The position numbers and the translations under genes are program-made. From Arachidicoccus rhizosphaerae (lineage in GTDB: Bacteria > Bacteroidota > Bacteroidia > Chitinophagales > Chitinophagaceae): a stretch of 64,000 nucleotides of DNA. Location: contig NZ_FNQY01000001.1 in NCBI RefSeq assembly GCF_900107765.1, positions 1 to 64,000 on the forward strand, read 5' to 3'. The notes beneath the pieces are model-generated. The model had not been told where the DNA came from. It saw nothing but the letters and a program-made list of their open reading frames with translations, and did not search any database. Below, piece after piece: positions 18,785 through 43,555 of the stretch; position 1 is the stretch's first letter, and each line of letters opens with the position of its first letter.

Positions 18785-18893
18785 AATACATAAATATTTA
18801 GATAAAACTAATATGGTTCTAACATTGCCTCCAATAACCACTGGAAGCAACTTTCTATATTTAATCTTTTAATACAGTTTTAGAATTCTATCA

Positions 18894-20608: not shown

Positions 20609-23600
20609 CTAAAAAGTTAATTGCGCTCCAAAGAACAATTCTTTATTATTAGGGAAAGTCAATCCCCATGGGGTTAACTCATCTATACCTCTATAGAGGT
20701 TATAACTTGTATTATCCGCACCAACTTCTGGATCATAACCTGTGTACTTCGTAAATGTCAGCAGGTTTTTACCTCCAATATAGAATCTCAAGCTATTGAT
20801 TTTCAATTTTTTTGTAACCTTTTCTGGCAACTGATACCCAATGGTCAGCGATTTAAGTCGCAAATATGAACCGTCTTCGATAAATCGATCAGAAGCACGA
20901 AGATTATGATTTGGATCACCCAAAATAGCTCTTGGAATATTAGTGTTTACATTCTTTGGATAAATTGTTGTCACCCCCGAAACAGGATTCACAAAAGTGA
21001 TCTCTTCTGCACGGTATCTATTGAGAACGGTAGCATAGTCATTATAATAATGGTACATACCTTCACCCCAATATTTACCATTATTGTAGATCTCATTGCC
21101 TTGGGTTCCTTGCCACATTGTGGACAGATCAAAAGACCCGAAATTAGTATTATAGGAAAGGCTTAAATTAAACCCATAACTAAAATCAGGTATAGGACTT
21201 CCAATAAAGGCTTTGTCTTCTTCATTCAATACGCCATCTTTATTTAGATCCTTAAAACGAACGTCCCCTAAAGCAGCATTTGGCGCAAATGCCTTATCTG
21301 CAGTCAGCTGATCGTCTGATTTATATAGGCCATCCGTAACATATCCCCAAAACTCTCCAATGGATGATCCGACTGCTGTTCTTGTAACATTTTCGCCACC
21401 AGGGCTTACTGTTCCAGCAAGGATCTCATTATTGTTTCCCAATGCTAAAACTTTATTCTTCACTGTTGAAAGGTTAGCTGATACAGAATAATTAAGATTG
21501 CCTACTGAATTTTTATAAGTCACTAAAAATTCAAACCCTTTGTTCCTTATGCTGCCTGAATTTAACGTGGGGAATTTATCAAGATAACCAGCAGTATAAG
21601 ATATGGGGACATTTACCAACATATCTTCAGTTTTCTTATTATAATAATCAATAGTCATTTCTAGGCTGTTATTGAACATAGACAAATCAAGGCCTAAATC
21701 TGTGGAATATTGAGATTCCCATTTGACATCCGGATTAGAAGGGTTTGTCGGTAAGGCTCCTGTAACCTTTACGCCATTAAGATAATACCAAACATGATCA
21801 AACGTTACAGTATTTTGGTATTGATACTGTGGAATATCGGAGTTACCCAAAACACCGTAGCTTCCACGTATCTTCATGTCATTTATAAATGAAAGTTTTT
21901 TCATGAACTTTTCTTGTCCAATTCTCCAACCCGCAGAAACGGATGGGAAATTTCCATATCGGTTGTTTTCACTAAAATTGCCAGAACCGTCCCTTCTGAA
22001 GTTTAAAGTAAGCAAATACCTACTATCGTAATTATAGTTAATTCTGCCCAGCATGGAGTACATCGCAAACTGACTTATTGAGGACCCCACAACCTTTGAA
22101 CTAGCATCCTGTGTTAGACCCAGAATCAACAAATCCGAACTCGGCAATGCCCTAACGCCTCCATTTAGCCCTTTTGAATTTGATTCTTCTGAGGTAATAC
22201 CCGCTACAGCACTGATATCATGCTTTCCATAACGATGATCATAGGAAAGCGTATGTTCATATAAAACTCGATTACTCTGACTCATTGAAATATTTAACTC
22301 ATCCGGATCATGATTTTGGTATTGCCCGACTGAATACGCAGATATATAGCCTTGGTTTCTGCCTCTGTAAACATCTACGCCCAGATTAAATTTATATTTC
22401 AACCCAGGAATAAATTCATAGGTTAGCCATACATTACCATTAACACCAAAATCTTCGGATTCATTAGCATTCAAATAGGCATTCGCCAAAGCACTTGCGA
22501 CATCTGTACCATTTCCAGCACCTGCAAAACCTGTTGGATTACTGGAATCATACAATGGCAAAGTAGAGGACCATTTTTGTGCGTCAATTAAATTCTTATT
22601 ACTCCAGTTTCTTGAATTATAACTGATCTTAAAATTTTCGCCGACTTGTAAATTTCCAAGGGTGAAATCGGAAAGAAACTGTAAACTATAATCCTTCGAT
22701 TTGTCTTTGATGATTATTGGATTATCATTTCCAAAGGTTCCGTTTAACCTGAAATGAGCCATTTGTGAACCACCGCTGATAGATAACGCATGGTGCTGAT
22801 AACTTCCAGTACGCAATAAAGCATCTTGCATGTTATAACCTTCACCAATTTCGGGTGGATTTGAGAGGGCTTTCAAATAATCCGTTCTCGTCGGATCCTG
22901 ATTATACATTTCCTCATTGATCAACTCGGCCAACTGTTGACCATTTAACATCTTTATATTGTGTGAAATTTTCTTAACGCCCGCATAACCATTGTATTCA
23001 ATTCTAGTAGGTCCGGATACACCTTTTTTTGTTGTAATAAGTACGACTCCATTCGCGCCTCTTGACCCATAAATGGCACAAGATGCGGCATCCTTTAGAA
23101 TTTGTATACTGGCAATATTATTTTCATCAGGCATTGCTCCTCCTATCATTCCGTCTACTACAAACAGTGGATCCGTATTATTAATAGATCCTACACCTCT
23201 GATACGGATCCGGCCATCATTTATCTGTACGCCTGGTGCATCACTTTGTAATACAGCTGAAAACCCTCCAGGAACCTTTGTCATCTTTTTGGGGTCAACG
23301 GTAGTAATTGCAGATGTCAGGTCTACTTTTTTTTGTTTTCCATAACCGATCACAACCACCTGTTCCATTGTATTGGTCTCTGTTGGAACTAATTTAACAG
23401 AAAGGTCCTTACTATTATTCACTGCAACTTCCTGGCTGACAAATCCCAATGAATTTATGCCCAAGGTGTCCCCTTTATGCACTAACAAAGAGAATTTCCC
23501 ATTTTCATCCGACACAACACCATGGTTTGTCCCTTTAACTAAAACAGAGACACCTGGTACTGTTATATCGCTTTCATTATATATAGTTCCAGATATTTTA

Positions 23601-23707
23601 AAAGGTTGATCCTGCGAATAGACGGGATTTCTTAATAATCCCAATTGGAGAACAATCAGCATCACAACAAAGCTTATTCCCCTAAAGCTTCTTAAATAAT
23701 TCATCAT
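20609..23707 (-). CDS. susC: SusC/RagA-family TonB-dependent transporter
   Basis: A 1032-residue outer-membrane porin that imports oligosaccharides with TonB energy, together with SusD. Signal peptide about 1-32. A carboxypeptidase-D regulatory-like domain (about 37-112: ISGTIYNESDITVPGVSVLV) is followed by the SusC signature MEQVVVIGYGKQKKVDLTSA, the plug (about 115-235, with GRIRIRGVGSINNTDPLFVV and ASCAIYGSRGANGVVLITTK) and a long beta-barrel ending in FFGAQLTF. There is no N-terminal STN domain, so no sign of signalling through an anti-sigma factor. First gene of the PUL, with an operator and a phylum-type -7 box upstream. Confidence 0.96.
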   Translation of the reverse strand: MMNYLRSFRGISFVVMLIVLQLGLLRNPVYSQDQPFKISGTIYNESDITVPGVSVLVKGTNHGVVSDENGKFSLLVHKGDTLGINSLGFVSQEVAVNNSKDLSVKLVPTETNTMEQVVVIGYGKQKKVDLTSAITTVDPKKMTKVPGGFSAVLQSDAPGVQINDGRIRIRGVGSINNTDPLFVVDGMIGGAMPDENNIASIQILKDAASCAIYGSRGANGVVLITTKKGVSGPTRIEYNGYAGVKKISHNIKMLNGQQLAELINEEMYNQDPTRTDYLKALSNPPEIGEGYNMQDALLRTGSYQHHALSISGGSQMAHFRLNGTFGNDNPIIIKDKSKDYSLQFLSDFTLGNLQVGENFKISYNSRNWSNKNLIDAQKWSSTLPLYDSSNPTGFAGAGNGTDVASALANAYLNANESEDFGVNGNVWLTYEFIPGLKYKFNLGVDVYRGRNQGYISAYSVGQYQNHDPDELNISMSQSNRVLYEHTLSYDHRYGKHDISAVAGITSEESNSKGLNGGVRALPSSDLLILGLTQDASSKVVGSSISQFAMYSMLGRINYNYDSRYLLTLNFRRDGSGNFSENNRYGNFPSVSAGWRIGQEKFMKKLSFINDMKIRGSYGVLGNSDIPQYQYQNTVTFDHVWYYLNGVKVTGALPTNPSNPDVKWESQYSTDLGLDLSMFNNSLEMTIDYYNKKTEDMLVNVPISYTAGYLDKFPTLNSGSIRNKGFEFLVTYKNSVGNLNYSVSANLSTVKNKVLALGNNNEILAGTVSPGGENVTRTAVGSSIGEFWGYVTDGLYKSDDQLTADKAFAPNAALGDVRFKDLNKDGVLNEEDKAFIGSPIPDFSYGFNLSLSYNTNFGSFDLSTMWQGTQGNEIYNNGKYWGEGMYHYYNDYATVLNRYRAEEITFVNPVSGVTTIYPKNVNTNIPRAILGDPNHNLRASDRFIEDGSYLRLKSLTIGYQLPEKVTKKLKINSLRFYIGGKNLLTFTKYTGYDPEVGADNTSYNLYRGIDELTPWGLTFPNNKELFFGAQLTF

Positions 23708-23895: not shown

Positions 23896-23903
23896 CAAAT
23901 GTA
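23896..23903 (-). promoter_or_regulatory. Predicted -7 promoter element of susC
   Basis: On the minus strand this reads TACATTTG, a full match to the Bacteroidota -7 consensus TAnnTTTG. It would start transcription near 23889, giving a leader of about 180 bases before susC. No clear -33 TTTG is present; the LacI-like operator occupies that place. Confidence 0.6.
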
Positions 23904-23917
23904 ATGTTAATTAATTA

Positions 23918-23939
23918 AAATTGCATTCGATTGCACAAT
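23918..23939. promoter_or_regulatory. LacI-type operator upstream of susC
   Basis: TTGCATTCGATTGCA (23921-23935) is a near copy of the perfect palindrome between xylB and lacI: over the 22-base frame 18 bases agree. It lies 14 bases upstream of the susC -7 box, over the -33 region, where a bound repressor would block RNA polymerase. A further palindrome GAAATCGATTTC lies at 23971-23982. Confidence 0.65.
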
Positions 23940-24230: not shown

Positions 24231-27110
24231 TTACTGATTTATATAAATCGGAAGCCGGGCACTTTTAAGCCCCTCACATTCAGCATCGATATAAATAATC
24301 GCTCTTTCTACTTTATATGAATCTCTATCATTCGCTAATTTATTTTCTTTATTTGTGGATGATGGTCCGACAATACAAAGCGCCTTGCCACTAAAAGCTT
24401 TCCGGTTATCGGAGGCGAAGCAGTGAAGGTCAGCCGGATCGCCGTTATCCGTCGCCCATATCTTGACCTGGCGTGCATTTGCATCAGTGTCTGCCTCCAC
24501 TGCCCGAATGGTAAAGTGAATACTATTTTGCGCATCCGGCACCAGGTTTCCTTTATCATCGATGACTTCTGCCTTGATAAAAGCCAGGGATCTTTCTGCC
24601 AGATGAATCGTATCGGTATTTGCTGTAAGCCGGATGGCCGCCGGAGCGCCTGCCGTATTTAATGACTCGGTGGCCCATAATTTTCCATTTTTATAGGTGA
24701 CCACTTTAATATTCCCCGGCTCATATACAGCACTGTCCCATCTGAACCTGTAGGTATAAGGCGTTTTATATCGTTTACCCTGGGATATACCGTTTATAAA
24801 CAGTTCAGCTTCATCCCCTGAACTAAATACATGGACAGGCGTGACTATTCCTTCTCTTCCGGGCAGGGTCCAGCTGGGCAGTATATGTGCCATGGGATAA
24901 TCAGGACGCCATCTGGCCTGGTATAAATAATAACGGTCCTTTTTAAATCCGGCCAGATCAATGATGCCTGAATAGGATCCTTTTGCCGCGTAATACGGCG
25001 TGGGTTCTCCCAGGTAATCAAAACCCGACCAGACAAATTCACCGGCTACAAAAGGATGCTGATCCTGAGCGGCAAAGACTTTATCGGGAGAAGCCCCAAA
25101 GGCCGCCGTATACAACCCGTAATCACTCACCCATAAATTCCTGGGATCTCCGCCTGAAGTGTCACTGGCGGGTGCACTGTTATATTTTGTTACCGGGAAT
25201 ACATAGGTGCCTCTCGTGCTTAAGGTGGAGGCAGATTCACTGCTGATGATCATCTTATCCGCAAACTGGTGATGAAAGCTGTCATATAAGGGTGAGGTAT
25301 GAATACCCTGCAGCCCTGCATAGGCAGGCGCATCTCTGATACCCTCTCCCTGATAATTTAGATTCAGCACATCCATGACCCGGCCAAAAGGCATGAGCGG
25401 TCTGGCATAGTTCATCGAGGCGGAAGCAGGTCTTGTCGGATCTTCTTCATGGACAATATCATGAAGCCTTTTAGCCAGCGCCGCTCCGGCGCTGTCCGTA
25501 TACTGTTCCCCTACCTCATTGCCAAAACTCCACTGCATAATGGACGGATGATTGCGGTCTCTGCGCACAAAGGATCTAAGGAGGGCTTCATACCAGTCGT
25601 CAAAAATCAGATGAAAATCCAGTGGGTTCTTCCCTTTTTGCCAACAGTCATTGATCTCATCGATAACCAGCAGTCCCATGCTATCTGTAAGGTCCAGCAG
25701 CTGCGGATCGGGAGGATTATGAGAGAACCGGATGGCGTTGCAGCCCATTTCCTTTAAGATCTCCAGTTGCCTGAGTGCGGCTGACCGGTTAAAAGCTGCG
25801 CCAAGCGCTCCGAGATCATGATGTTGATTTACCCCCTGAATCCTTACTTTATGGCCGTTAACAATAAGCCCTCTGTTTGCGTCATATTGAATATCCCGGA
25901 TGCCGAACTTTGTCTGGTATTCATCGAGCAGCTGCCCCTTCTGATTATATACAAGGGAGCGTATCTCGTAGCGGCTGGCCTGATACCGGTTGATATCTTT
26001 TGTAAAACCGACCGGCTGCCAGAGCCTGGGGTTATTCAGCTGAGCGGTCGCCAGGGCGGTCGCCGCCTTGCCCTTTGCCAGCCGGAGCTCCACAGGCGTA
26101 AATCCGGCCAGAGGCTCGCCTGTTACGTTGCCTTTTTCATCCAGGGCGTAAACAGAGGAGACAACACGCAGGTCCGCCGTATTGCCGGACTGGTTATTTA
26201 GCTTCACTTCCAGACGGACCAGGGCTTTGTTAGCGGAGACCTCCTGAGTGGTAACATATGTTCCGTACTGATCGATATGGACCGGGTTTACTTTTACCAG
26301 CCAGACATTTCTGTAAATACCGGCGCCGGGATACCACCTGGAACTACTTGCCGGATTATCGAGCCGGATCGCCAGCTGATTCATGCCGCCCGGATGTACA
26401 AAAGCAGTCAGATCTAATCTGAATGAGCTGTATCCGTAAGGCCAGCCACCTACCAGATGCCCGTTAAGCCACACTTCGGCGTAACTCATGGCGCCATCCA
26501 TGTCTAAAAAAATACGTTTGCCTTTATCCGCAGCGGGAATGTTCAGCTTTTTTCTGTACCAGGCCACGCCCTGTACCGGCAGCCGGCCCATGCCGCCGCC
26601 TACCGGCACCGGATCTCCCTTATAAAATTCCTTGTCTATGGCCCAGTCATGAGGCAGATTCACCTTTTGCCAATGGCCGTCATTAAAATCTGCCTGCACG
26701 AAAGCAAAGTCCTGACCGGGACTTTTACCCACCGGGTGGGGGTACCAATCAGCAGTATCTTTAATAAATTTGTTGGCCGTAGGAAGTATCCAGGATTTAA
26801 CCCCGCCAACGCCGCCGGTTTTTCCGGTAATATCTGCTCTTGTATCGGCTACTTTCTGATCATTATGATCGGTTACCTGAGGACGCTTATCATAATAAAG
26901 GGAATCCGGCTCCTGATCCTGCCCCAAACTGTCCTGACCGGGATAGCGCATGAAACGCCAGCCCTGATCGATTAATATTCTTTGTCTGGGGCTTTGACCC
27001 GGATCATTTTGTGCGTGCGCCGCTGCCGATAAAAGGCAGAGTAATAAAGCACAGACCATCCGTCTAAAAAAAAGCGGTGGATAAAAGTTGCTTTTAACAT
27101 CAGTATCCAT
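24231..27110 (-). CDS. GH2 glycosidase (beta-galactosidase-like, DUF4982)
   Basis: A secreted GH2 enzyme of about 959 residues from the ATG at 27110 (an in-frame ATG at 27167 adds 19 residues; the signal peptide MVCALLLCLLSAAAHAQ fits the later start better). Order: sugar-binding jelly roll with VNLPHDWAIDKEFYKG and AWYRKKL, immunoglobulin-like domain, TIM barrel with GVNQHHDLGALG and IRFSHNPPDP, acid/base Glu in MQWSFGNEVGEQ, nucleophile Glu in IISSESASTLSTRG, then a DUF4982-type domain and a C-terminal domain. Family activities include beta-galactosidase, glucuronidase and others; the substrate cannot be fixed. It follows xylE but a terminator lies between. Confidence 0.88.
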   Translation of the reverse strand: MDTDVKSNFYPPLFFRRMVCALLLCLLSAAAHAQNDPGQSPRQRILIDQGWRFMRYPGQDSLGQDQEPDSLYYDKRPQVTDHNDQKVADTRADITGKTGGVGGVKSWILPTANKFIKDTADWYPHPVGKSPGQDFAFVQADFNDGHWQKVNLPHDWAIDKEFYKGDPVPVGGGMGRLPVQGVAWYRKKLNIPAADKGKRIFLDMDGAMSYAEVWLNGHLVGGWPYGYSSFRLDLTAFVHPGGMNQLAIRLDNPASSSRWYPGAGIYRNVWLVKVNPVHIDQYGTYVTTQEVSANKALVRLEVKLNNQSGNTADLRVVSSVYALDEKGNVTGEPLAGFTPVELRLAKGKAATALATAQLNNPRLWQPVGFTKDINRYQASRYEIRSLVYNQKGQLLDEYQTKFGIRDIQYDANRGLIVNGHKVRIQGVNQHHDLGALGAAFNRSAALRQLEILKEMGCNAIRFSHNPPDPQLLDLTDSMGLLVIDEINDCWQKGKNPLDFHLIFDDWYEALLRSFVRRDRNHPSIMQWSFGNEVGEQYTDSAGAALAKRLHDIVHEEDPTRPASASMNYARPLMPFGRVMDVLNLNYQGEGIRDAPAYAGLQGIHTSPLYDSFHHQFADKMIISSESASTLSTRGTYVFPVTKYNSAPASDTSGGDPRNLWVSDYGLYTAAFGASPDKVFAAQDQHPFVAGEFVWSGFDYLGEPTPYYAAKGSYSGIIDLAGFKKDRYYLYQARWRPDYPMAHILPSWTLPGREGIVTPVHVFSSGDEAELFINGISQGKRYKTPYTYRFRWDSAVYEPGNIKVVTYKNGKLWATESLNTAGAPAAIRLTANTDTIHLAERSLAFIKAEVIDDKGNLVPDAQNSIHFTIRAVEADTDANARQVKIWATDNGDPADLHCFASDNRKAFSGKALCIVGPSSTNKENKLANDRDSYKVERAIIYIDAECEGLKSARLPIYINQ

Positions 27111-27203
27111 TGCAGTCTGCATAACCTGGCGCGCTATATGGATGGATGGACATTTTGGGGTTATCATACGTCAAAGTCTCCTAATTAAAATATGTGGTCA
27201 AAA

Positions 27204-27335: not shown

Positions 27336-28994
27336 TTAATGTTTCTTTTTCCAGAACAGTTCAATTTCTTCCAGACTGCGTCCTTTGGTTTCCGGAACCA
27401 GTCGCCAGATAAAGATGGCGGATAAAACAGACATGATGCCATATACCCAATAGGCAAAGCCATGGTGAAATTTATCTACTAAGGCGATATTATCGTTCAT
27501 CATGGGGAAGGTAAAGGACACCACCCAGTTAGCAATCCACTGTACTGCTACTGCTATAGACATCGCTCCTCTGATTGAATTAGGGAATATCTCTGCCAGC
27601 AGTACCCAGCATACCGGACCCCAGCTCATGGCAAAGGCGGCGGTATAGATCAGCATAAAAATCAAGGCCCCCACGCCCACGCTGTCAAAATAAAAAGAAA
27701 GCCCCAGGGCAATCATACTGACAGCCATGCCCAAGGATCCGATAATCATCAGCGGCTTACGCCCGAATTTATCCACCGTGAATATGGCCAGTACCGTAAA
27801 CAGCAGATTGACGATCCCTACGATAATGGTTTGAAGTAAAGAAGCGTCGGTGGAAGCGCCCATATTTCTGAAGATATTACCCGCATAGTAAAGCACCACG
27901 TTAATGCCCACAAACTGCTGGAATACGGATAGCAGGATACCGATTACAATAATCAGCGATCCGTAAGAAAGCCAGGGACGGCTATGATCTTTTAAAGTTC
28001 CCTTTATCGCTTCCAGCACACCCGGCGCCTCTGACTTACCGCCAATTTTTTCCAGGACTTTTAAAGCCTCTTGCTCTTTGCCTTTTAATGCCAGAAAACG
28101 CGGTGTTTCCGGGATAAAAAACAGCAGGATAAAAAACAGGCCGGCAGGCACGACTCCGGACAAAAACATCCAACGCCAGCCGATTTCCTTCAGCCAGGCT
28201 TCATCTCCCTGGGCAGCGATCCTGTAATTGACAAAATAAATCACCAGCATACCGAAGATAATGGCAAACTGGTTAAAAGAAACCAGTTTACCTCTGGTCC
28301 TAGCCGGGGCAATCTCTGCGATATACATCGGAGAAATCATGGAAGCCAGTCCCACGCCGATTCCTCCGATAATTCTGTATATCACAAAAGAGAATACATC
28401 CAGGGTGCCAAAGACATTGAACAACTCAGGCCTCCAGGCACCGATAGCCGAGAGGATAAAACAAATGGCCGATATAAACAGGCCGTTTTTCCGTCCCAGA
28501 CTTTTGGATACCACGCCTGCTAAAGCGCCGCCTACAATACATCCCACCAGCGCACTGGCAATCACAAAACCTTTAATCGTGTCTCCCATTCCCTGGACAG
28601 CGACGCTGTCCGCAGGTACCGCTTCCCCGATAAAAGACCAGCTCCAGACCCCCCAAAGGATTAAAACAATGGCAGTAAACAGTCCGCCTTTTTTACGGCC
28701 CAGCAGTTTAAGCATCTGGAAGGAGATGATAACGGCTACCACCAAAAGGACCACCACCATCAGTATCCGGTACTGCGTAATGATGGGACGAGTCAGCGTC
28801 TGGTAATGAGCAGGATCCAGCATGGGTGTAATATAAAAATCCACCAGGGATTTTTCTGCCCCGTTCACCACTGCGGTATCATACCCGAATAAGAGCCCCC
28901 CAAAAGTGGCTACCAGGGTTAAAAGCACTAAGTATAACTTGTTGCCCTGTTGTAATCCTGTATCGGCGGATCCGCCGGTATTTATAAAAGCCAT
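27336..28994 (-). CDS. xylE: XylE-like D-xylose:H+ symporter (MFS sugar porter) with insertion
   Basis: A 552-residue inner-membrane sugar porter, very like E. coli XylE in FGGLLFGYDTAV, FVIYRIIGGIGVGLASM, RGKLVSFNQFAIIFG, FQQFVGINVVLYYAGN, AFAMSWGPVCWVLLAEIFPN and the ending PETKGRSLEEIE. It should bring xylose into the cytoplasm for XylA. Between TM1 and TM2, where E. coli XylE has a short loop, there is an insertion of roughly 75 residues (about 57-135) with two hydrophobic stretches (about 76-97 and 104-123), probably two extra helices. Last gene of xylB-xylA-xylE, 61 bases after xylA. Confidence 0.93.
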   Translation of the reverse strand: MAFINTGGSADTGLQQGNKLYLVLLTLVATFGGLLFGYDTAVVNGAEKSLVDFYITPMLDPAHYQTLTRPIITQYRILMVVVLLVVAVIISFQMLKLLGRKKGGLFTAIVLILWGVWSWSFIGEAVPADSVAVQGMGDTIKGFVIASALVGCIVGGALAGVVSKSLGRKNGLFISAICFILSAIGAWRPELFNVFGTLDVFSFVIYRIIGGIGVGLASMISPMYIAEIAPARTRGKLVSFNQFAIIFGMLVIYFVNYRIAAQGDEAWLKEIGWRWMFLSGVVPAGLFFILLFFIPETPRFLALKGKEQEALKVLEKIGGKSEAPGVLEAIKGTLKDHSRPWLSYGSLIIVIGILLSVFQQFVGINVVLYYAGNIFRNMGASTDASLLQTIIVGIVNLLFTVLAIFTVDKFGRKPLMIIGSLGMAVSMIALGLSFYFDSVGVGALIFMLIYTAAFAMSWGPVCWVLLAEIFPNSIRGAMSIAVAVQWIANWVVSFTFPMMNDNIALVDKFHHGFAYWVYGIMSVLSAIFIWRLVPETKGRSLEEIELFWKKKH

Positions 28995-29055: not shown

Positions 29056-30384
29056 TTAGATATATTGATTAATGATGTTCTCGTATAATTCCTGTTTGCC
29101 GCTGATCATGGCCGGTTCACCATTGGCTACCGCATAATCTCGCAGGGCCACCAGATCCAGTTTGCCTGCTTCAAAATCCGCGCCCGCACCACTGTCAAAG
29201 GACTGATAGCGCTGCTGACGAAGTTTTTTGTAATCAGACTGCTGTAAAACTGCGTCGGCCACAATAAGCGCTCTGGCAAAAGTGTCCATGCCACCGATAT
29301 GCGCATAGAACAGATCCTCGGGATCCGTAGAGTTTCTTCTGATTTTTGCGTCAAAGTTGATTCCGCCTTTATTAAGACCACCGGCTTCCAGTAAGATCAG
29401 CATGGTTTCTGCCAGCTCATTGACACTGGTCGGGAACTGATCGGTATCCCAGCCGTTTTGATAATCTCCTCTGTTGGCGTCCATGGAACCTAATAATCCC
29501 GCCTGTGCGGCCACCTGCACTTCATGCTGGAACGTATGGCCGGCAAGTGTGGCATGGTTCACTTCCAGATTCAGCTTAAAGTCATTTTGCAGACCAAAAT
29601 GCTCTAAGAAGCCAATAACGGTGGCTGCGTCATAATCATATTGATGTTTGGTAGGTTCACAGGGTTTTGGTTCGATTAAGAAAGTGCCGGTGAAGCCCTG
29701 GGCTCTGCCGTAGTCCTTAGCGACATGCAGGAACTTCGCCAGATGTTCCTGTTCTCTTTTCATATCGGTATTTAAAAGACTCATGTACCCTTCTCTGCCG
29801 CCCCAGAATACATAGTTGGAACCGCCCAGCTTAATGGTAGCGTCCAAGGCCGCTTTCACCTGTGCAGCGCCGTGCGTCAGCACGTGAAAATCAGGATTGG
29901 TCGCTGCCCCGTTCATGTAACGTACATGAGAGAACAGATTAGCCGTACCCCAGAGCAGTTCAATGCCGCTGGCAGCCTGTTTTTGTTTGGCATAGTCCGT
30001 AATGAAACTCATGCGTTTCTCATTTTCCTGAATATCATTCGTATGTTCAATCAGGTCCACATCGTGAAAACAGTAAAACGGCAGGTTGATCTTTGTCATA
30101 AATTCAAAGGCCGCGTCCATTTTATCCTTAGCCCGCTGCAAGGGGTCTGCGCTCTGATCCCATGGGAAAAAATGGGTTCTGCCGCCAAAAGGATCGGAAC
30201 CGTCTCCGTTAAAAGAGTGCCAGTAAGCACAGGCAAAACGTAACCAGTCTTTCATGGGTTTGCCTGCTACCACTCTGTCTGCTTCATACCATCTGAATGC
30301 CAGTGGATTTTTTGATTCGCGGCCTTCGAACTGAACCTGGCCGATACCTTTAAAGAACGCTTTGTCCCCGGTAATAATTGACAT
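29056..30384 (-). CDS. xylA: Xylose isomerase
   Basis: A 442-residue cytoplasmic enzyme converting D-xylose to D-xylulose with two divalent metals. Seen: catalytic H107 in FCFHDVDL-like [22 protein letters not shown], metal-binding Glu in [35 protein letters not shown], and [20 protein letters not shown]. All active-site blocks are present and the length is that of the class II isomerases. It lies 17 bases after xylB and before xylE, so one transcript is expected, controlled by the operator upstream of xylB. Confidence 0.97.
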
Positions 30385-30401: not shown

Positions 30402-31910
30402 TTATGAATGAATAATGTTGTTTTTTTCAAGTTTGTTGTCCAGCAGGCTCTTCCACTGTTGATAAATGGTTTCATATTGAGCCACTAATGCCGGATCGGG
30501 TTCTATTACGGCCAGTTTTTCCAACGCCTCAAAGGCAGTGGCCGGTTTGTCATAATACCCCTGTCCGATACCGGCGCCCAGTGCGGCGCCGATGCTGCCA
30601 TCCGTATTATAGAGTTCAAGGGTAAGTCCTGTTACATTTACAAAAGCCTGGATAAAGGTCTGGTTTAAGAACATATTGGCTTTGCCGGCCTTTACCACCC
30701 GGGCCTGGGTACCCCCTTCTTTCATGATATCCAGTCCATACCTGAAAGAAAAAGCAATCCCTTCATGTACTGCCCTGTATAAATGAGCGCGGTCATGGGT
30801 ATTAAAATCAATATTTTCCAGATGGGCCCCCAGATAATGATTACATAATATTCTTTCTGCTCCGTTCCCGAAAGGCAAAAACAGTAACCCATCCGCTCCG
30901 ACGGCTGTAGCCAGCGCCTTTTGGTCCATCTGCCCGTAGGAAAGGCCCGGATCCGTCATCTGTTTAATCCAACGGTTGCTGATACCGGTACCATTAATAC
31001 ATAATAATATACCCAGCCTGCGATGATCTTTTGCATGGTTAACATGAGCAAAAGTGTTTACGCGGCTCAGGGGATCAAAATAACGCTGGTCAGTGACCGC
31101 ATAGATAACACCGCTGGTACCTGCCGTAGTCGCTATTTCTCCAGGTTCCAGCACCCCCAGCGATAATGCATTATTAGGCTGATCGCCGGCCTTATAGGTA
31201 ATCGGGATGCCCGGCTTTAAGCCCAGCGCTTCCCCGGTTGCCTCATTAAGCCTGCCGTGATCGGAGAAAACAGGTTGAACGGCCGGCAGTAAATCCCTGT
31301 CCAGTTCCATTGCTTCCAATAAGGCTTCTGATATATCTTCTTTTTTAAAATCCCAGAAAACACCTTCAGAAAGCATGGAAGGGCTGGCCGTAATCTTACC
31401 CGACAGCTTAAAGGCAATAAAATCGCCCGGCAGCATCATTTTATAACTCTGATGATAGATTTCCGGTTCATGTGCTTTAACCCAGCCTAATTTAGAGGCG
31501 GTAAAGTTTCCGGGAAAATTGAGCATATTAGTCAGTAAATAACTGTCACTCAGTTTTTTTCTTGCCTGACCGCCTACTTCTGTCGCTCTGCCGTCACACC
31601 AGATGATAGAGGGGCGCAGTACCTTGCCTGCTTTATCCACCAGGACCAGTCCGTGCATCTGATAAGTAATCCCGATGGCCGCAATGGATAAGGGATCAAA
31701 CCCGCCCCCGTCGATTACCGCTTTAATCCCATTTTGAACATCACTCCACCAGAGCTCCGGATCCTGTTCCGCCCACCCGTGGCGCGGCGACTGGATCTCA
31801 CGTTCTGTATCAGAAGGATAGGAAGTGGCAGCTACCACCTTTCGGGTATCGGCATCTACCACGGAGACTTTTATAGAAGAAGTCCCTAAATCAATTCCCA
31901 GTAAAAGCAT
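30402..31910 (-). CDS. xylB: Xylulokinase
   Basis: A 502-residue FGGY-family sugar kinase that phosphorylates D-xylulose to xylulose-5-phosphate, the entry to the pentose phosphate pathway. Seen: the phosphate loop [12 protein letters not shown] (5-16), substrate residues in TYQMHGLV (QMHG 84-87), catalytic D243 in [14 protein letters not shown], and the C-terminal ATP site [16 protein letters not shown]. First gene of xylB-xylA-xylE; the divergent lacI gene lies 161 bases away with the shared operator between them. Confidence 0.96.
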
Positions 31911-31992: not shown

Positions 31993-32000
31993 CTAAAGTA
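31993..32000 (-). promoter_or_regulatory. Predicted -7 element of xylB
   Basis: On the minus strand this reads TACTTTAG, seven of eight bases of TAnnTTTG. The LacI palindrome begins 15 bases upstream of it, almost the same spacing as at susC (14). Confidence 0.45.
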
Positions 32001-32015: not shown

Positions 32016-32037
32016 AAATTGCAATCGATTGCAATTT
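32016..32037. promoter_or_regulatory. Perfect LacI-type operator between xylB and lacI
   Basis: A perfect 22-base palindrome whose 16-base centre is TTGCAATCGATTGCAA (32019-32034). It lies between the divergent xylB and lacI promoters and overlaps the -33 regions of both, which fits repression of xylBAE and autoregulation. LacI-family operators with a central CG are well known. Weaker copies occur at 23918-23939 and 43534-43555. Confidence 0.85.
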
Positions 32038-32055: not shown

Positions 32056-32063
32056 TAAATTTG
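32056..32063 (+). promoter_or_regulatory. Predicted -7 element of lacI
   Basis: TAAATTTG matches TAnnTTTG in full and ends only 8 bases before the ATG at 32072, so the mRNA would have almost no leader. Confidence 0.55.
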
Positions 32064-32071: not shown

Positions 32072-33109
32072 ATGCAAAAAGAAATAACCATTTATGATAT
32101 CGCAGAGCGCCTGGGCGTCTCTGCTACCACTGTCAGCAGGGCTTTAAATGACAATCCCAGAATAAATAAAAAGACCAGAGAAAAGGTCCACCAGCTTGCC
32201 AAAGAACTGGGCTATCGACATAACACCTTGGCTGCCAACTTAAGAAAGCAACAAACAAAGACCATAGGTGTTATCCTGCACGAGGTCAACAGTTATTTTG
32301 CCACCTCCGTCCTTGCTGGTATTGAAAAAGTGACCACCCCGGAAAATTTCGATATTCTGATTACCCACTCTGCAGAAACCGCTGAGCGGGAAAAAGCGAA
32401 TGTGAAGAATCTGATTAATAAAAGAGTGGATGGCATTATTGTATCGCTGGCCATGCACTCTCACGACATCGAGCATTTTGCCCCCGTGTTCGACCGGGAA
32501 GTTCCCCTGGTCTTCTTTGACCGTGTTTTACAGGGAGCGGAATGCACAAAAGTCGTCATCGATAATTTCCAGGGCGGTTATGACGCAACCAACCATTTAA
32601 TCGGCCAGGGTTGTAAGAAAATTGCCCATATCACCGGAGATCTGGATCTGAACGTATATATGGATCGCTATAAAGGTTACCAGAAGGCCTTAAAGGACCA
32701 TAAAATTAAATTAAATAAGGAGCTGGTCAAGGTCTGCGGCCTGAACAAGGCTGAAACGACCCAGGCCGTTACAGAAATGCTGGAACATCAGCCGGATGCT
32801 TTTTTTATCCCCAGCGACTTTGCCGCAGCGGTCTGTATGGAAATCCTGCATAATAAAGGGCTCAGGATCCCGGAAGATATTGCCGTTTTTGGCTTTAATA
32901 ACGATATGCTGAGTGATCTGATAACGCCTAAGCTCTCTACCATTGATTATCCGGGGTTTTTAATGGGAGAAATGGCGGCCAAGACCTTAATTGAACAAAT
33001 CAAATTACGTCGTAAGAATAAAAACGTTAAAGACCATACCATCGTGATTCCGACAGAAATTATCCTAAGAGAATCTTCTGTCAGAAAAACAGCAAAACCC
33101 AAACGGTGA
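32072..33109 (+). CDS. LacI-family transcriptional regulator, probable xylan/xylose regulon repressor
   Basis: A 345-residue LacI/GalR protein. The N-terminal helix-turn-helix and hinge helix (about 4-58) read ITIYDIAERLGVSATTVSRA then TLAANLRKQQTKTIGVILHE. The periplasmic-binding-like sensor domain (about 62-335) includes VDGIIVSLAMHSHD, PLVFFDRV and IAVFGFNNDMLSDLITPKLS, ending IILRESSVRK. It is divergent from xylBAE and shares their perfect operator. Copies of that operator before susC and GH3 suggest it also controls both xylan operons. The inducer is probably a xylan-derived sugar, which is inferred, not seen. Confidence 0.92.
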   Translation: MQKEITIYDIAERLGVSATTVSRALNDNPRINKKTREKVHQLAKELGYRHNTLAANLRKQQTKTIGVILHEVNSYFATSVLAGIEKVTTPENFDILITHSAETAEREKANVKNLINKRVDGIIVSLAMHSHDIEHFAPVFDREVPLVFFDRVLQGAECTKVVIDNFQGGYDATNHLIGQGCKKIAHITGDLDLNVYMDRYKGYQKALKDHKIKLNKELVKVCGLNKAETTQAVTEMLEHQPDAFFIPSDFAAAVCMEILHNKGLRIPEDIAVFGFNNDMLSDLITPKLSTIDYPGFLMGEMAAKTLIEQIKLRRKNKNVKDHTIVIPTEIILRESSVRKTAKPKR

Positions 33110-34943: not shown

Positions 34944-36908
34944 TTATTCTTTAACCGTTAGTTCAAAAGGTGCAGCCGGTAGTCCTGCCATATTTTCCAG
35001 GTTTGCCCTGAGCGGATTATCACTCCAGCCATAACGAACGGACCTGGGAACTTTTACCTGTGGGCTATGGACCCAAACCTGATCCCCTTTAATTTCAGCG
35101 TGGGCCCAGTAGTATTTTCCGTCAGCGCCGGCCAGGGCAAAATGATCCAGGCTGCTGTCCCCCGGTCTTATGCGCAGGGGCTGGGGCGATCTGAAGTGGA
35201 TAACCACGCTATCTCCCAAAAGCTGTGCGTCCCTGGCCACCGGGCTATGATGAAGGGGTACGAAGCTAGCGCCGTTTAACCCGGCGCCGCTATAACACAT
35301 ATCTTTGGCCAGTAAAAACAGACGCTCCCCGACCGGCTTTTTATTATACGGATGTACATCATTCCACTCTCCAAGCCCGAGTGTAACGGCTACATCCGTA
35401 CGGGGCTGGGAGAGAATACTTAGTTGCGCCTGACGTAAGGCCGCCCAGGCGCTGCTGGCCCCGGCGTCCCAACTCTCCGTCATAAAATTGGGTAGTTGCA
35501 CGACTAAAAAAGGTAAACTTTCACTATGCCATCCGGCCCTGAGGGCAGCTAATAAATCCTTTAATTTAAGCGCATATTCCGGGGCATTATCGGTATTGGA
35601 TTCGCCCTGATACCAGATAACGCCTTTCACCCCATAGCTGAAAGCGGGCGCCATCATGGCGTTATATAAACCGCCGGGCTTCCACCGGACAAAAGTCTGG
35701 CCGGGTGCAGGAGCCCGGGCGGCTCCTACCTTTATCTTCCAGCGTCCGGCAAGGCTTACCGTATCCTGATCCAGCACCAGCGCATAAGGTTTATCCGGCA
35801 CAAGGCCCCCCTTATCCGCCTGACTTACCAGACGGATGGTCACCGTATTTATGCCCTCATGCAGCACATCTGCATTAAAATCATACCGTCTTCTGGGATA
35901 CTGATAAGTCGTACTTCCGACATAAACGCCGTTTACAAACACAGAGTCCGCATCCACTATTCTGCCAAGCATGAGTCTGGCTTTTTTTGCGGTCAGGGGA
36001 TGGCGGAGTAAAACAGATTTTTTCAGCCATACCACGCCGTTTACCTGACCCAGGCCCTGATCCGCCCAGTAGCCTGGCACACTCATGGAGAACCAGCCGT
36101 TCACTTCCGCACTATGAATATCCAGCCTTTGCCAGCCCTGATGCTCTCCTTTATCCTGACGGTTTAATCCGGCCGCCCACGCAGCCGCTTTTTTTTGATC
36201 ACCCTGTTCAACCGCTGCAATCAGGCTGTCGTTTTTAAAACGCAGCAGTTCTGCTTCATCTTCAGGGTATTTTTTAAGGGCAGATTCAGGCAGCCAGGCC
36301 TCTATTGGTGAGCCGCCGAGAGAAATATTAATAATCCCCACCGGCTGATGGGTATCGTGGTAGAGCTGCTGGGCAAAGAAAAATCCTACCGCCGTAAATG
36401 CACCGATCTTTTCATGGGTGGCAGCGGTCCAGCTGCCTGCCGGATAATCCTTTTGCTCCTGCTTAAAATTATAAGTACCCGGCACCTTGAACTGCCTGAT
36501 CGCCTCATAGGAGCTATCGGCTAATAAGGACGGATATTTTTCTACCACACTATTCAGATCATGCTCCATATTGGACTGGCCGCTCAAGACCCAGACCTGT
36601 CCTACCAGGATATCTCTTATGAGAATCTTTTGTTTGCCGGAAGCAATGAGCATCTGGTCCGGCCCGCCGGATGATAAAGCAGGTAAGCTGACCCGCCACC
36701 TGCCGTCTGCGCCCGCCCTGGCGTGATACTGCTTCCCCCTGAAACTTACATGCACCGTACTGCCTTTCTCTGCCCAGCCCCAGACAGGCACCGGTTGGCT
36801 GCTCTGCAAAACCATACCATCGCTACAGAGCCTGGGCAGTTTTAACTGGGCACCCGCCCAGAAGCCAGACATTAAAAACAGACAACTTCCTAGAATTTTT
36901 TTAAACAT
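34944..36908 (-). CDS. Sialate O-acetylesterase-type carbohydrate esterase (SGNH)
   Basis: A 654-residue secreted SGNH/SASA esterase. In xylan loci such enzymes remove acetyl groups from xylan or xyloglucan (CE20-type); the annotation name of the family comes from sialic acid work. Signal peptide about 1-20. Catalytic S112 lies in VLSGQSNMEHDL, the second block is GVIWYQGESNTDN, and the Asp-His pair is in WNDVHPYNKKP. A GH2-like jelly-roll domain (about 255-395) is inserted in the catalytic domain, a layout seen in this group. Last gene of the GH3-GH10-GH115-esterase operon, 67 bases after GH115. Confidence 0.87.
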   Translation of the reverse strand: MFKKILGSCLFLMSGFWAGAQLKLPRLCSDGMVLQSSQPVPVWGWAEKGSTVHVSFRGKQYHARAGADGRWRVSLPALSSGGPDQMLIASGKQKILIRDILVGQVWVLSGQSNMEHDLNSVVEKYPSLLADSSYEAIRQFKVPGTYNFKQEQKDYPAGSWTAATHEKIGAFTAVGFFFAQQLYHDTHQPVGIINISLGGSPIEAWLPESALKKYPEDEAELLRFKNDSLIAAVEQGDQKKAAAWAAGLNRQDKGEHQGWQRLDIHSAEVNGWFSMSVPGYWADQGLGQVNGVVWLKKSVLLRHPLTAKKARLMLGRIVDADSVFVNGVYVGSTTYQYPRRRYDFNADVLHEGINTVTIRLVSQADKGGLVPDKPYALVLDQDTVSLAGRWKIKVGAARAPAPGQTFVRWKPGGLYNAMMAPAFSYGVKGVIWYQGESNTDNAPEYALKLKDLLAALRAGWHSESLPFLVVQLPNFMTESWDAGASSAWAALRQAQLSILSQPRTDVAVTLGLGEWNDVHPYNKKPVGERLFLLAKDMCYSGAGLNGASFVPLHHSPVARDAQLLGDSVVIHFRSPQPLRIRPGDSSLDHFALAGADGKYYWAHAEIKGDQVWVHSPQVKVPRSVRYGWSDNPLRANLENMAGLPAAPFELTVKE

Positions 36909-36975
36909 GAGCTGAATAAATAAAGATAGGTTCTGGAATACATTTTCTGCTGCCGCTGCAGCTACTCAATATCTT

Positions 36976-39963
36976 TTAAGGATGAAAATAAGACGCCGGC
37001 GCCCCGAGAAAACTAGGTCTTTCTTTGCCAAAGTTCAGTTCCATTTTCTCCAGCACCACGCCTGGAGAAATCGCCCATATTTTAAGCGTGTGCAGACCTG
37101 AACGGCTCAGATCCACCTTTTCGGTGATGATCCTGATGGTGGCGGCCACTTCTTTTCTCCAGGCCTGTTCTGACTGAACGCCCTGATTCATATTGATGGT
37201 AACCGGGCTGCCATCATCTATGGCGTAGGCAAACTCAAGGCCTTCCGTATGCCAGAGATTGAGCGTGGGCGCCAGATAAAACTTCAGGCTGGCCTTGCCT
37301 TTATCCGTCGTATAGAACCGGTAACTGATACTCGGGTTTTGCGGGCTGAAAGGCATGGGCGTAAAGTTGACCGGCATGGGCGTCACGGCGCCGGCCGTTT
37401 TCCCAAAACCGGGCAGCGCCGTCCAGCGCACACCCTGGCTGAATTTTACGGAGTCCCCCGTAAAACCAAGTGCGTCCATACTCACCAAATGATCCGATTC
37501 GATATAGGCCTTATGCGGCCAGTTACCGGCAGCTCCATCATGTAACTGCAGGACTATTTTTTTATAAGCACCCCCGCTACCCGAAATCTCCATAGAGGTC
37601 GTTCTCAGCTGGCCAGCTGAATGGTCGCCTCCCAGCTGATCCCAGTTGACCTGAAAGGAGATATCCACCCCTGCCTGCGCGAGGTCCAGCTGACTTTTTT
37701 TATTTTCTATTATGATCACCGCCGGATCAGCCGTTTTAATCTGATAGCTGACCGGAGTAGCGGACTTAGCAAATACGCTGATCTTCCCCGCCAGCTCTTT
37801 TTCTGCGGTCCATCTGTCCAGGTATAAAGTATCAGGTGCTGCAATGCCCAGCAGCGGTTTTTCTGGTAAGCTAATATTTTTTACTTCCGGCAGGCTGTTA
37901 TGCTCCGGCTGTTGCCAGTATGTATAGCCAATATGTGTCTGATCCATAAAATGGTTCCACTTGCCACCCGCATTTACCTTATTATAACGATAACTCAGCA
38001 GGCTGTCCTGCAGATAATAAAACCTGACACTGTCTGCATATCTGCCGGTGGCGGATCTGCCCTGACGGGCATACAGGTGATTGAGCGCCTGGGCCCGGTA
38101 CAGCTGGTATAAATTGGCGCTTGCCGCCACCTGATAGCCTACCAGTTCAAAATAAGCCGGCCTGTACGCTTCAGGCAGCGCCTGATAGACGGCCTCACTT
38201 CTTTTAGCAAGGCTGGTGTAATCCGTCACCACCCGGTTCCACTCCTCAAAGTGCTCCAGACTATAGGTATTTCTATCCAGCAGCTCCGGTTTTACCCGGG
38301 CATTGTATTTGGTAAATAAATGAATAATATCCGCGATCTCAGCCGGGTAGTGACCGCCGAACTGCCGGGCGGCCCAGCTTTTGGTATAGGCCGGCAGATC
38401 CTCATAGGATATCTTATCCGGGTTATAGGCATAATCCAGAAAAAAGGAAATAGGGAACTCCATGGGCTTTAAATCTCCGACGTTTACAATCCATATTTTA
38501 TCCACTCCGTAACTGTATGCCAGATGCATCTGCTCCCAGGTTCGTTCAATCGTATTGGTATTAATCCATTTATAGTTTCTGGGGTCTCCCACATAATCAA
38601 AATGATAGTAGATACCATAGCCTCCCGGCCGGTACGGCGCGTCCAGCTTCGGCAGTTTTCTAAGATTGCCCCAGTTGTCATCACAGAGCAGCAGGGTAAT
38701 ATCATCCGGCACCCGCATGCCTTTGTCGTAGTACTCCTGTACCTCTTTATATAGCGCCCAGAGCTGCGGCGTCTCGCTGGCCGGTTTACCGGTCACCCTG
38801 GACAAAATGCTTCTTTGGTCCTTTATGATTTTTTCCAGTAAGGCGATATTGCTGCCTTCGGTCATCGGCATATCTCCATCACCCCGCATGCCGACCGTTA
38901 CGATGCTCTCATGCGTACCCATATGCTCAATGCCTTTTTCCCAGAAATCATCCAGCACCTTTTGGTTGGTCTGATAGTTCCACTCGCCTTTGCCATATCT
39001 TTTCCACTCCTGTTGAGCGCGCAGCATCGGTTCATGATGGGAGGTCCCCATTACGATTCCATACTGATCTGCCAGCCGGGGATTGAGCGTATCATCGTCA
39101 TTAAAAGCATTGCCCCACATGGCCGGCCACAGGTAATTGGCTTTCAGTCTGAGCAGCAGTTCAAATACTTTCGTATAGAACTGATGATTAAAGCCGCCAA
39201 ACTTTTCATGGACCCAGCCGGAGAGCGCCGGTGCTTCATCATTTAAGAATATGCCCCGGTATTTTACTTTGGGAGAGGCCAGCACTGTTCTTTGGTTCAG
39301 GCAATAAATCTGATCCCGGTGCCGGGTCGGCACATCCCCCCAGTAATACCAGGCAGAGACCCCTATTTGTCTGGAGATCTCATAAATGCCGTAGATGGTG
39401 CCTCTTTTATCACTGCCGGCTATGACCAGCGCCCTTTTAACGCCGGGCACCGGATTATCCACCACCTGCATCAGCGTGGATTCCCACTTTCCGGCTACCT
39501 CATCCACCTGTATCTTTCCCTTTTGAATTAAAGCGTCAATAAGCGCATTATGACCTATCGTACCGGCCAGGATGGCCATGTCAAGGGGCTGCGTCGCAGT
39601 CGCACCGTCCGGTATTACCCTTGCCGCCGTTCCTGTCACCCGCTTAAAATCAGCCGAGAGATTACCGGCTGCAATGGCCACGCCTTTATAATCGTCACCT
39701 GAAATCAAAATAGTCGCCGCCCGGTCCCTGGCGGCCAGTAGATAAGACGCAGTATCCTGCTTCTGGTCTGCCTGCGTACCAGTTTTTAAAGCACTCGCCG
39801 CAGCGCCCGGTGCAAAACCGATTATCTGCGTCTGCGCCTGTAAAGGCGCCGCCGTCAAACAAAAACCGCCTGCAAAAATGATCATTACTGCCAGTAATTG
39901 CCCTGCAAGGCTGTCCCTAAGGACGCTGCCGGAAGTCCATAACCGCCTGAACGCTGCTCTCAT
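36976..39963 (-). CDS. GH115 xylan alpha-1,2-glucuronidase
   Basis: A 995-residue secreted enzyme that removes (4-O-methyl)glucuronic acid side chains from glucuronoxylan. The signal sequence runs to about residue 44 (LQAQ). After an N-terminal domain with a deacylase-like IAGSDKRGTIYGIYEIS, the barrel shows KVKYRGIFLNDEAPALSGW, LRLKANYLWPAMWGNAFN, MGTSHHEPMLRAQQEW, TVGMRGDGDMPM and LLCDDNWGN, all family blocks. A C-terminal beta domain (about 845-995) completes the usual length. An AAACGTTT palindrome at 39967-39974 lies just upstream of its start. It lies 142 bases after GH10 in the same direction. Confidence 0.94.
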   Translation of the reverse strand: MRAAFRRLWTSGSVLRDSLAGQLLAVMIIFAGGFCLTAAPLQAQTQIIGFAPGAAASALKTGTQADQKQDTASYLLAARDRAATILISGDDYKGVAIAAGNLSADFKRVTGTAARVIPDGATATQPLDMAILAGTIGHNALIDALIQKGKIQVDEVAGKWESTLMQVVDNPVPGVKRALVIAGSDKRGTIYGIYEISRQIGVSAWYYWGDVPTRHRDQIYCLNQRTVLASPKVKYRGIFLNDEAPALSGWVHEKFGGFNHQFYTKVFELLLRLKANYLWPAMWGNAFNDDDTLNPRLADQYGIVMGTSHHEPMLRAQQEWKRYGKGEWNYQTNQKVLDDFWEKGIEHMGTHESIVTVGMRGDGDMPMTEGSNIALLEKIIKDQRSILSRVTGKPASETPQLWALYKEVQEYYDKGMRVPDDITLLLCDDNWGNLRKLPKLDAPYRPGGYGIYYHFDYVGDPRNYKWINTNTIERTWEQMHLAYSYGVDKIWIVNVGDLKPMEFPISFFLDYAYNPDKISYEDLPAYTKSWAARQFGGHYPAEIADIIHLFTKYNARVKPELLDRNTYSLEHFEEWNRVVTDYTSLAKRSEAVYQALPEAYRPAYFELVGYQVAASANLYQLYRAQALNHLYARQGRSATGRYADSVRFYYLQDSLLSYRYNKVNAGGKWNHFMDQTHIGYTYWQQPEHNSLPEVKNISLPEKPLLGIAAPDTLYLDRWTAEKELAGKISVFAKSATPVSYQIKTADPAVIIIENKKSQLDLAQAGVDISFQVNWDQLGGDHSAGQLRTTSMEISGSGGAYKKIVLQLHDGAAGNWPHKAYIESDHLVSMDALGFTGDSVKFSQGVRWTALPGFGKTAGAVTPMPVNFTPMPFSPQNPSISYRFYTTDKGKASLKFYLAPTLNLWHTEGLEFAYAIDDGSPVTINMNQGVQSEQAWRKEVAATIRIITEKVDLSRSGLHTLKIWAISPGVVLEKMELNFGKERPSFLGAPASYFHP

Positions 39964-40105
39964 AATAAACGTTTGACTTTACAATAATTTTAGAATAAAT
40001 TATGCCACCGGTCCTGTTCCTACCGGACTGCATGCCCGGATGTGGAGCGCGGATGCGGACCCCGGGCCCGTAACAAGGCCGGAATACTATTAAAATTTCT
40101 CTTTT

Positions 40106-41266
40106 TTAGGGAGCGGTTGCCCCGGCCCCCTTAAAATCCGTTACCGCCTGATAGGCGGGTTTTCTCTTTAGCGCACTGTCAAATAATAAGGGATAGTTTT
40201 TACGGCCTTCTACCGGATAATAATTCAGCCAGGTATCCCTATCCGATACGTTCCAGAAAGTAACCCCTGAAATCACCCCTTTATAGTCCCTGAAGACTTT
40301 AAAAATCATTTTATAAAAAGCCGTCTGCCGGTCTTCCACCTGACCCTGGTAGCGGATCTGATCTTTGGGCAGGAGCGCTCTTTTATTTTTCTCCCATGGG
40401 AATACAGAAACGTCCAGTTCCGTAATCTGAATTTTCAGCCCCAGGCTTTTAAACAGATCCAGTGTGGAGCGCAGCTGCTGCTCTGTTGGCTGGTAGACCG
40501 ACCAGTGCGCCTGGATACCGATGCCGGTAATAGGCACGCCTCTTTGCTTTAAGCCTTTGAGCAGGGTATAGATCCTTTTGGCTTTCTCCGGAAAAACGAC
40601 ATTATAGTCGTTATAATAAAGCTCCGCTTTGGGGTCCGCCCGGTGGGCATACCAGAAGGCACTGTCTATAAAGGAAGGTCCGATAATTTTAAGCCAGGGG
40701 CTTTTTCTGAGCAGCTCCGTGGAGTCATCGCTGATCGCTTCGTTGACAACGTCCCAGCAGTATACATCCTTCTTATAACGGCTAACCACGGTCCGGATAT
40801 GATCCCTTAATCTGGAAAGCAGGACGCTTTTAGCGACCTCGCCGCCTCCGGCATCCTTAAAAAGCCAGTCCGGCGTCTGTTCATGCCAGCAGAGATTATG
40901 TCCTCTTACCTTTAAACCGTGCCTGCGGGCAAAGGCAACGATGCTATCCACAGGGGCAAAATTATACTGATCTGCTGCGGGGTGTACCGGCCCCATTTTC
41001 ATGTCATTTTCCGGGGTAACGCTGTTATATTCCTTTAATATAAGTGCGGCCTCGGGGCCTTTAATATTACGGCTGTTAACGGCGACGCCGACCGGAAAAT
41101 AATCCTTGTAATAATCCTTTAGTCCCGGCTGCGGCGCTGCCAGCCCGGAACCGGACAGCCCGCTGTCCTGACGCCCCTTACCGCTTTGAGCACTCCCGCC
41201 GCAGCTGGCAAGGCCAAGCACCAGGCTTATCCCCGTAGCCATTATAACCCTTGCTGATAGATGCAT
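40106..41266 (-). CDS. GH10 endo-beta-1,4-xylanase lipoprotein
   Basis: A 386-residue retaining xylanase that cuts the xylan backbone. It carries a lipobox, LGLASC with C22, so it is membrane-anchored and probably surface-exposed. A Gly/Ser-rich linker (23-48) precedes the catalytic domain. Acid/base E176 lies in WDVVNEAISD and nucleophile E283 in QITELDVSVFPW; NSVTPENDMKMGPVHP and RGHNLCWHEQTPDWL are further family blocks. It is the only clear endo-acting enzyme in the window. Between GH3 (40 bases) and GH115. Confidence 0.96.
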   Translation of the reverse strand: MHLSARVIMATGISLVLGLASCGGSAQSGKGRQDSGLSGSGLAAPQPGLKDYYKDYFPVGVAVNSRNIKGPEAALILKEYNSVTPENDMKMGPVHPAADQYNFAPVDSIVAFARRHGLKVRGHNLCWHEQTPDWLFKDAGGGEVAKSVLLSRLRDHIRTVVSRYKKDVYCWDVVNEAISDDSTELLRKSPWLKIIGPSFIDSAFWYAHRADPKAELYYNDYNVVFPEKAKRIYTLLKGLKQRGVPITGIGIQAHWSVYQPTEQQLRSTLDLFKSLGLKIQITELDVSVFPWEKNKRALLPKDQIRYQGQVEDRQTAFYKMIFKVFRDYKGVISGVTFWNVSDRDTWLNYYPVEGRKNYPLLFDSALKRKPAYQAVTDFKGAGATAP

Positions 41267-41306
41267 GTTTATGGATTGATTTCTTTTTTGTTACTGTTGA
41301 CCGGCC

Positions 41307-43493: not shown

Positions 43494-43533
43494 GAGAGTT
43501 CTGTAATTTTAAGGGAAGGTAGTAAATAATTTG

Positions 43534-43555
43534 AAATTGCAATCGATTGTATTAT
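43534..43555. promoter_or_regulatory. LacI-type operator upstream of the GH3 operon
   Basis: TTGCAATCGATTG (43537-43549) agrees with the xylB-lacI palindrome over its whole left half and centre; 19 of 22 bases match. It lies 41 bases before the GH3 ATG. A weak -7-like TACCTTCC occurs on the minus strand at 43514-43521, 12 bases inside, similar in layout to susC and xylB. Confidence 0.7.

Follow-up and report, generated by a model that had tools for sequence, protein, structure and literature searches.

Introduction

A functional precedent for the joint control of xylan and xylose genes is XylR of Xanthomonas and Caulobacter, a LacI-type regulator reported to repress genes for xylan degradation and xylose use and to be released by xylose (PMC10380989, citing older work). 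SuxR of Xanthomonas, a LacI/GalR repressor, is described as acting on a TonB-dependent sucrose locus; it resembles the system analysed here in placing a TonB-dependent transporter and catabolism under a LacI repressor, and differs from it in the sugar, in the phylum and in being restricted to one local locus (PMC1790865). More generally, LacI or hybrid two-component system (HTCS) regulators are given for known β-1,4-xylan systems (PMC12125979). Xylose control in Bacteroidota is likewise described for XylR of Bacteroides (BT0791), but this protein belongs to the NrtR family and is given for xylose catabolism, not for xylan loci (PMC3878776). Polysaccharide loci in Bacteroides are described as being controlled by HTCS (PMC3878776, PMC10766802). 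A similar gene content in the same phylum is reported for the xylan polysaccharide utilization loci (PULs) of Gramella flava, which contain xylA, xylB, xylE and an annotated lacI; the PULs and the xylose genes are induced by xylan, and the lacI appears in that account without an assigned operator or regulon (PMC5306329).

What is known about the regulation of Bacteroidota xylan loci comes mostly from gut Bacteroides, in which membrane sensors act on the polymer locus and a separate regulator serves the sugar. Our search of the openly accessible literature, which covered titles, abstract openings and passages, returned no described LacI operator for a Bacteroidota xylan PUL. Here, we analysed a window of 64,000 nucleotides of Arachidicoccus rhizosphaerae (C27:1-64000; contig NZ_FNQY01000001.1) from a 4.87-Mb genome (G000) in 54 contigs. 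A palindrome found in this window is likely to be the operator of the adjacent LacI, which would repress the uptake and breakdown of xylan together with the use of xylose and would respond to a sugar inducer, most likely xylose. As in Xanthomonas and Caulobacter, the predicted regulator is of the LacI family, and operators of one class lie at both xylan and xylose genes. The xyl-box of XylR has 14 bp (TGGTAGCGCTAACA); unlike the XylR systems, the present one is found in another phylum, includes susCD systems, and has a different operator, which overlaps the −33 region of TAnnTTTG promoters. A LacI regulon of a known kind is well supported here, in a phylum better known for another design.

Results

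A probable palindromic operator at three loci of the window

Operator 1 (AAATTGCAATCGATTGCAATTT, 32016..32037, core 32019-32034) is a 22-bp sequence identical to its own reverse complement. It is common to the divergent xylB and lacI promoters and ends 37 bp 5' of the lacI start. A palindromic operator with a central CG near its own lacI is a trait of the LacI/GalR family, and operator 1 has it. Operator 2 (23918..23939) lies upstream of susC and matches operator 1 at 18 of 22 bases, and operator 3 (43534..43555), upstream of GH3, matches it at 19 of 22. Both have two mismatches in the 16-bp core of the operator (TTGCAATCGATTGCAA) and are less symmetrical than the xylB site. A sequence-only reading of the window had reported the perfect palindrome and both counts, and these agree with our check of the letters at 32016-32037 and our recount.

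When the window was scanned with the 16-bp core at up to three mismatches, operators 1-3 were the only matches. In 100 dinucleotide shuffles, the mean was 0.51, and three matches were reached in two of them. All three operators lie within two mismatches. At this level, simulating the window 60 times with a first-order Markov model gave a mean of 0.017 matches and a maximum of one. An Rfam scan of the window returned nothing at the gathering score.

Gene content was assigned with Pfam for 30 window genes (up to 54187) and with NCBIfam for six. The operators head three co-directional runs on the reverse strand, and operator 1 also fronts lacI in the opposite direction. The first run, the xylose unit, begins with xylB (xylulokinase, 30402..31910; PF00370/PF02782; TIGR01312 at 302.6 bits, under the cut-off of 380.25) and continues with xylA (xylose isomerase, 29056..30384; TIGR02630 at 670 bits, above cut-off) and an XylE-type xylose transporter (27336..28994; NF007484 at 697 bits, above cut-off); a GH2 enzyme identified by Pfam (24231..27167) is probably its last gene. 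The second run comprises the SusC outer-membrane transporter (20609..23707; TIGR04056 at 783 bits), SusD (18979..20586; PF07980, PF14322) and downstream genes for five GH43 enzymes, GH31, GH39, a GH51-like α-L-arabinofuranosidase and GH127 (1505..18850). The third consists of GH3, a GH10 xylanase, a GH115 glucuronidase and a SASA-type esterase (34944..43493). Gene order suggests that each of the three runs is an operon. Between the xylose unit and susC, after the GH2 stop codon, lies a hairpin with perfect 22-bp arms and a 2-nt loop (24162-24207), which is probably a terminator. At the left end of the window, a DDE transposase gene (138-1268) adjoins the xylan cluster. At 50830-53438, a gene of the arginine deiminase family precedes one of the DDAH family.

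Sites across the genome and the genus

The core was found with up to two mismatches at ten places in the whole 4.87-Mb genome, and the reversed pattern at none. Three of the ten lie in the window, so that seven comparable sites exist outside it; the earlier remark that no comparable copy occurs elsewhere holds within the window (up to three core mismatches) but not genome-wide. The seven sites lie mostly at carbohydrate genes (susCD or GH). A second susC-susD-GH43 locus has two of them upstream (C24:433, which is perfect, and C24:630). The site at C24:131825, whose 16-mer is identical to that of the susC operator, precedes a GH43 gene, and the site at C9:83951 separates susC from a GH5-family gene. 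At C9:52894, the site falls within a Melibiase_2 (alpha-galactosidase) frame, 46 bases past its called start. The last two precede the gene of a paralogous LacI (C27:383717) and an additional susCD pair (C27:522562). At up to three mismatches there are 38 places against 11 for the reversed control, and 28 of the 38 have exactly three; single sites with three mismatches are partly background.

In six Arachidicoccus genomes (G000 and G001-G005), 51 places with up to two mismatches were found, and none for the reversed pattern. The number within 60 kb of a lacI orthologue is 26, compared with 1.35 expected, the places being partly orthologous, so that a Poisson value overstates their independence. 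A perfect core lies upstream of xylB in all six genomes, and a site precedes GH3 in four, including G001, G002 and G005. Like the window's susC, its orthologue in G005 is preceded by a two-mismatch site. Genes of the susC-b type have sites in five of the six genomes, with two or more in four of those, and in three species one site overlaps the called susC start. Several other two-mismatch sites of the congeners lie within genes and look like chance occurrences. Immediately upstream of the LacI orthologue, the best match carries five mismatches in G003 and four in G004.

The operator lies at a fixed distance from a candidate −7 box

The σABfr promoter consensus is described as TAnnTTTG at −7 and TTTG near −33, and for Flavobacterium the −33 motif is given as not identified (PMC7366714). 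We measured offsets from the first base of the operator to the start of a TAnnTT[TA]G box in 9-bp bins, using a set of oriented sites that omits duplicates, deep-intragenic sites and sites without a downstream gene start. In the genus, boxes start 15-23 bp past the operator (offset 31-39) at 17 of the 51 oriented sites, while the other bins hold 0-4; in the family set described below, the same bin is occupied at 11 of 91 sites and the others hold two at most. The box is missing from this bin at 34 of 51 genus and 80 of 91 family sites. The boxed genus sites fall into five promoter classes, namely xylB (5/6), lacI (4/5), susC-A (2/2), the outer site of susC-b (4/5) and paralogous lacI (2/2 species shown), which are partly orthologous, so that the 17 do not represent 17 independent events.

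The candidate −7 box of xylB in the window is TACTTTAG (31993..32000, reverse strand, offset 34); the same sequence occurs at offset 32-34 in five of six species, and TACTTTTA in the sixth. For lacI, the candidate is TAAATTTG (32056..32063, forward strand, offset 37), and TAnnTTTG is found at offset 37-39 in the four species whose xylB/lacI gap has the site; the tandem lacI of G003 has no TAnnTTTG box. The candidate for susC is TACATTTG (23896..23903, reverse strand, offset 33), with the same box and offset in G005, and GH3 has a weak candidate with four of six fixed bases, TACCTTCC (43514..43521, reverse strand, offset 31). If the centre of the box is placed at −7, the operator extends from about −48 to −28. 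It would thus cover the −33 region because the box begins 15-23 bp beyond it, and such a placement appears suited to blocking RNA polymerase. It should be added that the lacI start codon follows 9 nt after the end of its candidate box (32056-32072), with identical spacing in G001 and G005, and the lacI mRNA would be almost leaderless.

The LacI protein and its paralogues

The putative reader of the operator is a LacI-family regulator of 345 aa (32072..33109, forward strand). It has an N-terminal helix-turn-helix (PF00356, 59.7 bits against a cut-off of 27) and a C-terminal ligand domain resembling periplasmic binding proteins (PF13377, 107.5 bits; PF00532, 82.9 bits). The solved chains that match it best are CcpA and PurR, and the LacI of A. 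ginsenosidivorans is 92% identical. All 12 Pfam families matching it at E ≤0.001 are helix-turn-helix, periplasmic-binding or IF2_N families, with no Nudix/NrtR model among them.

The genome encodes 13 LacI-domain proteins, and a core-like site (up to three mismatches) lies upstream of three of their genes: the xylan lacI, a paralogue at a rhamnosidase locus (C27:382654-383661, 40% identical to the xylan LacI) and one other. Within about 350 bp upstream, the best core match has no mismatch for the xylan lacI, two for the paralogue, three for the LacI gene at C16:36042 and four for that on C25. In a FastTree tree of 104 LacI proteins, a single clade (local support 1.0) unites the xylan LacI and its paralogue with the other proteins fetched from the genus and the family, two excepted. 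The remaining 11 LacI proteins of this genome fall outside this operator-sharing clade; the splits within it, between xylan LacI, paralogue and tandem partners, are poorly supported.

A variant site of the TTGYTATCGATTGCAA type was found at the susC-c/GH5 locus of three species (L031:5952, L138:4846, L144:4595); the TAnnTTTG box there has an offset of 85. This type of site resembles the site before the LacI gene at C16:36042, and the susC-c/GH5 sites possibly belong to the regulon of another LacI.

The operator in the wider family and phylum

Relatives of LacI at E ≤ 1e-85 were found in 113 of 294 family genomes searched. From the stronger matches, 60 Chitinophagaceae regions were hand-picked, one per genome, by LacI similarity and not by operator. 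A LacI frame was called in 59 of them; 46 of these regions also have relatives of xylA/xylB or GH10/GH115, and 30 have xylA or xylB. We scored the operator as present when a site with up to two mismatches to TTGCAAYCGRTTGCAA lay between 350 bp upstream of a start and 60 bp inside it. By this measure it precedes lacI in 45 of 82 cases (37 of the 82 genes have none), susC-b type genes in 13 of 26, xylB in 6 of 24, GH3 in 3 of 14 and the esterase in 2 of 17. It is scarce or absent at xylA (1/28), GH115 (1/28), GH43 (1/24), GH10 (0/27), susD (0/23) and unclassified genes (5/350). The reversed control gave zero for all listed gene classes.

In a phylum sample of 395 genomes, a LacI relative at E ≤ 1e-80 occurs in 19, family members included. 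Of 14 LacI loci examined next, 13 being from beyond the family, four have an upstream site with up to two mismatches. Judged from these sequences, the operator looks like an old property of the LacI clade rather than an invention for xylan only.

Tandem lacI pairs of the operator-sharing clade were found in 16 of the 59 family regions (L157, L158, L160, L161, L165, L166, L167, L169, L172, L173, L176, L178, L179, L184, L186 and L205). Fifteen of these regions lie beside relatives of xylA/xylB or GH10/GH115, and in 11 of the 16 each copy is preceded by a site with up to two mismatches. The asymmetric family operator TTGCAACCGATTGCAA was considered as a sign of LacI heterodimers in genomes with such pairs; this was rejected, as equal asymmetry occurs at single-lacI loci (for example L154, L188, L194 and L204).

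Discussion

The sites, their conservation, the genes that they precede and the fixed distance to the −7 box are direct observations. From them, we infer a repression mechanism in which, without inducer, a LacI dimer would sit on TTGCAATCGATTGCAA, across the −33 promoter region of xylB, lacI, susC and probably GH3, and block RNA polymerase. LacI would be released by an intracellular sugar that derives from xylan; the likeliest candidate is xylose, ahead of xylobiose or other products. Uptake through susCD, xylose transport and catabolism by isomerase and kinase would then be induced jointly with debranching and backbone cleavage by the GH43 enzymes, GH127, GH3, GH10, GH115 and the esterase. With one palindrome serving both divergent promoters, operator 1 would control xylB and also allow lacI to repress itself. 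For the paired susC-b sites, DNA looping is not favoured, because the protein, which ends eight residues past the part aligned with LacI, presumably lacks the tetramerisation helix.

The sequence-only reading had placed uptake, breakdown and xylose catabolism under one LacI. Comparative genomics supports this, with more sites than the three originally named; a single LacI is likely but not exclusive, because the operator could also be read by the 40% identical paralogue, whose own gene has a similar site. We regard it as possible, though not the favoured reading, that this paralogue reads the operators too, or instead, in an overlapping two-repressor network. It belongs to the clade of the xylan LacI, and its own upstream site (GTACAATCGATTGCAA) is followed by a −7 box (TAGATTTG) at the same offset; the tandem pairs in the family, often with a site before both copies, point in the same direction. 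The genus sites, however, cluster near the xylan lacI, the recognition helices differ (SATTVSR versus APSTISR in the comparison of xylan LacI and paralogue), and the sites of the paralogue are TACAATCG rather than TGCAATCG in three of three species. Cross-binding would be the main rival to the xylan LacI as sole reader, most of all at GH3, because the GH3 core on its coding strand (ATACAATCGATTGCAA) is one base from the paralogue's site and two from the xylB core.

A different role for LacI, as an activator or as repressor and activator depending on the promoter, seems unlikely. The box at offset 85 in the three susC-c/GH5 loci, where the variant site lies well upstream of the promoter, would suit it, but that variant may lie outside the regulon of this LacI, and at xylB, lacI, susC-A, susC-b and paralogous lacI the −33 region is overlapped by the operator. 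It is similarly improbable that an HTCS runs susCD as in Bacteroides while LacI merely tunes xylose catabolism. This is the usual design described for Bacteroides (PMC3878776, PMC10766802), and a large Reg_prop reading frame of HTCS-regulator size (1466 aa open frame) is found immediately beyond the right edge of the window, with matches from C27:64367. That is the nearest one, however: among the 32 matches listed for Reg_prop, none falls in C27:1-64000, and the susC promoter has a LacI site at a repressor position, conserved in G005. That the three sites arose by chance, or are an element of an unrelated factor, is hardly credible. Matches with exactly three mismatches are indeed common in the genome (28 places, with 11 for the reversed control), and several two-mismatch sites of the congeners fall in genes, but the statistics at two mismatches (0.017 expected against three in the window; 51 against none in the genus), the conservation at orthologous promoters and the association with lacI contradict chance, which we reject at this level.

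Repression by the xylan LacI would give Chitinophagaceae a simpler, one-repressor design for which a specific operator, promoter position and gene list are predicted. More speculatively, and rather doubtfully, a single-tier LacI switch might govern xylan loci, uptake and pentose catabolism across the family in place of the HTCS-plus-XylR arrangement of Bacteroides, and tandem LacIs sharing one operator class could act as homodimers or heterodimers that integrate two glucuronoxylan signals (such as xylose plus a uronic acid or xylo-oligosaccharide) at a single promoter. In these organisms, the operator could also be put to use as a genetic part that responds to xylan or xylose. Among the family regions, a GH67 glucuronidase is present in all three loci whose frame was tested.
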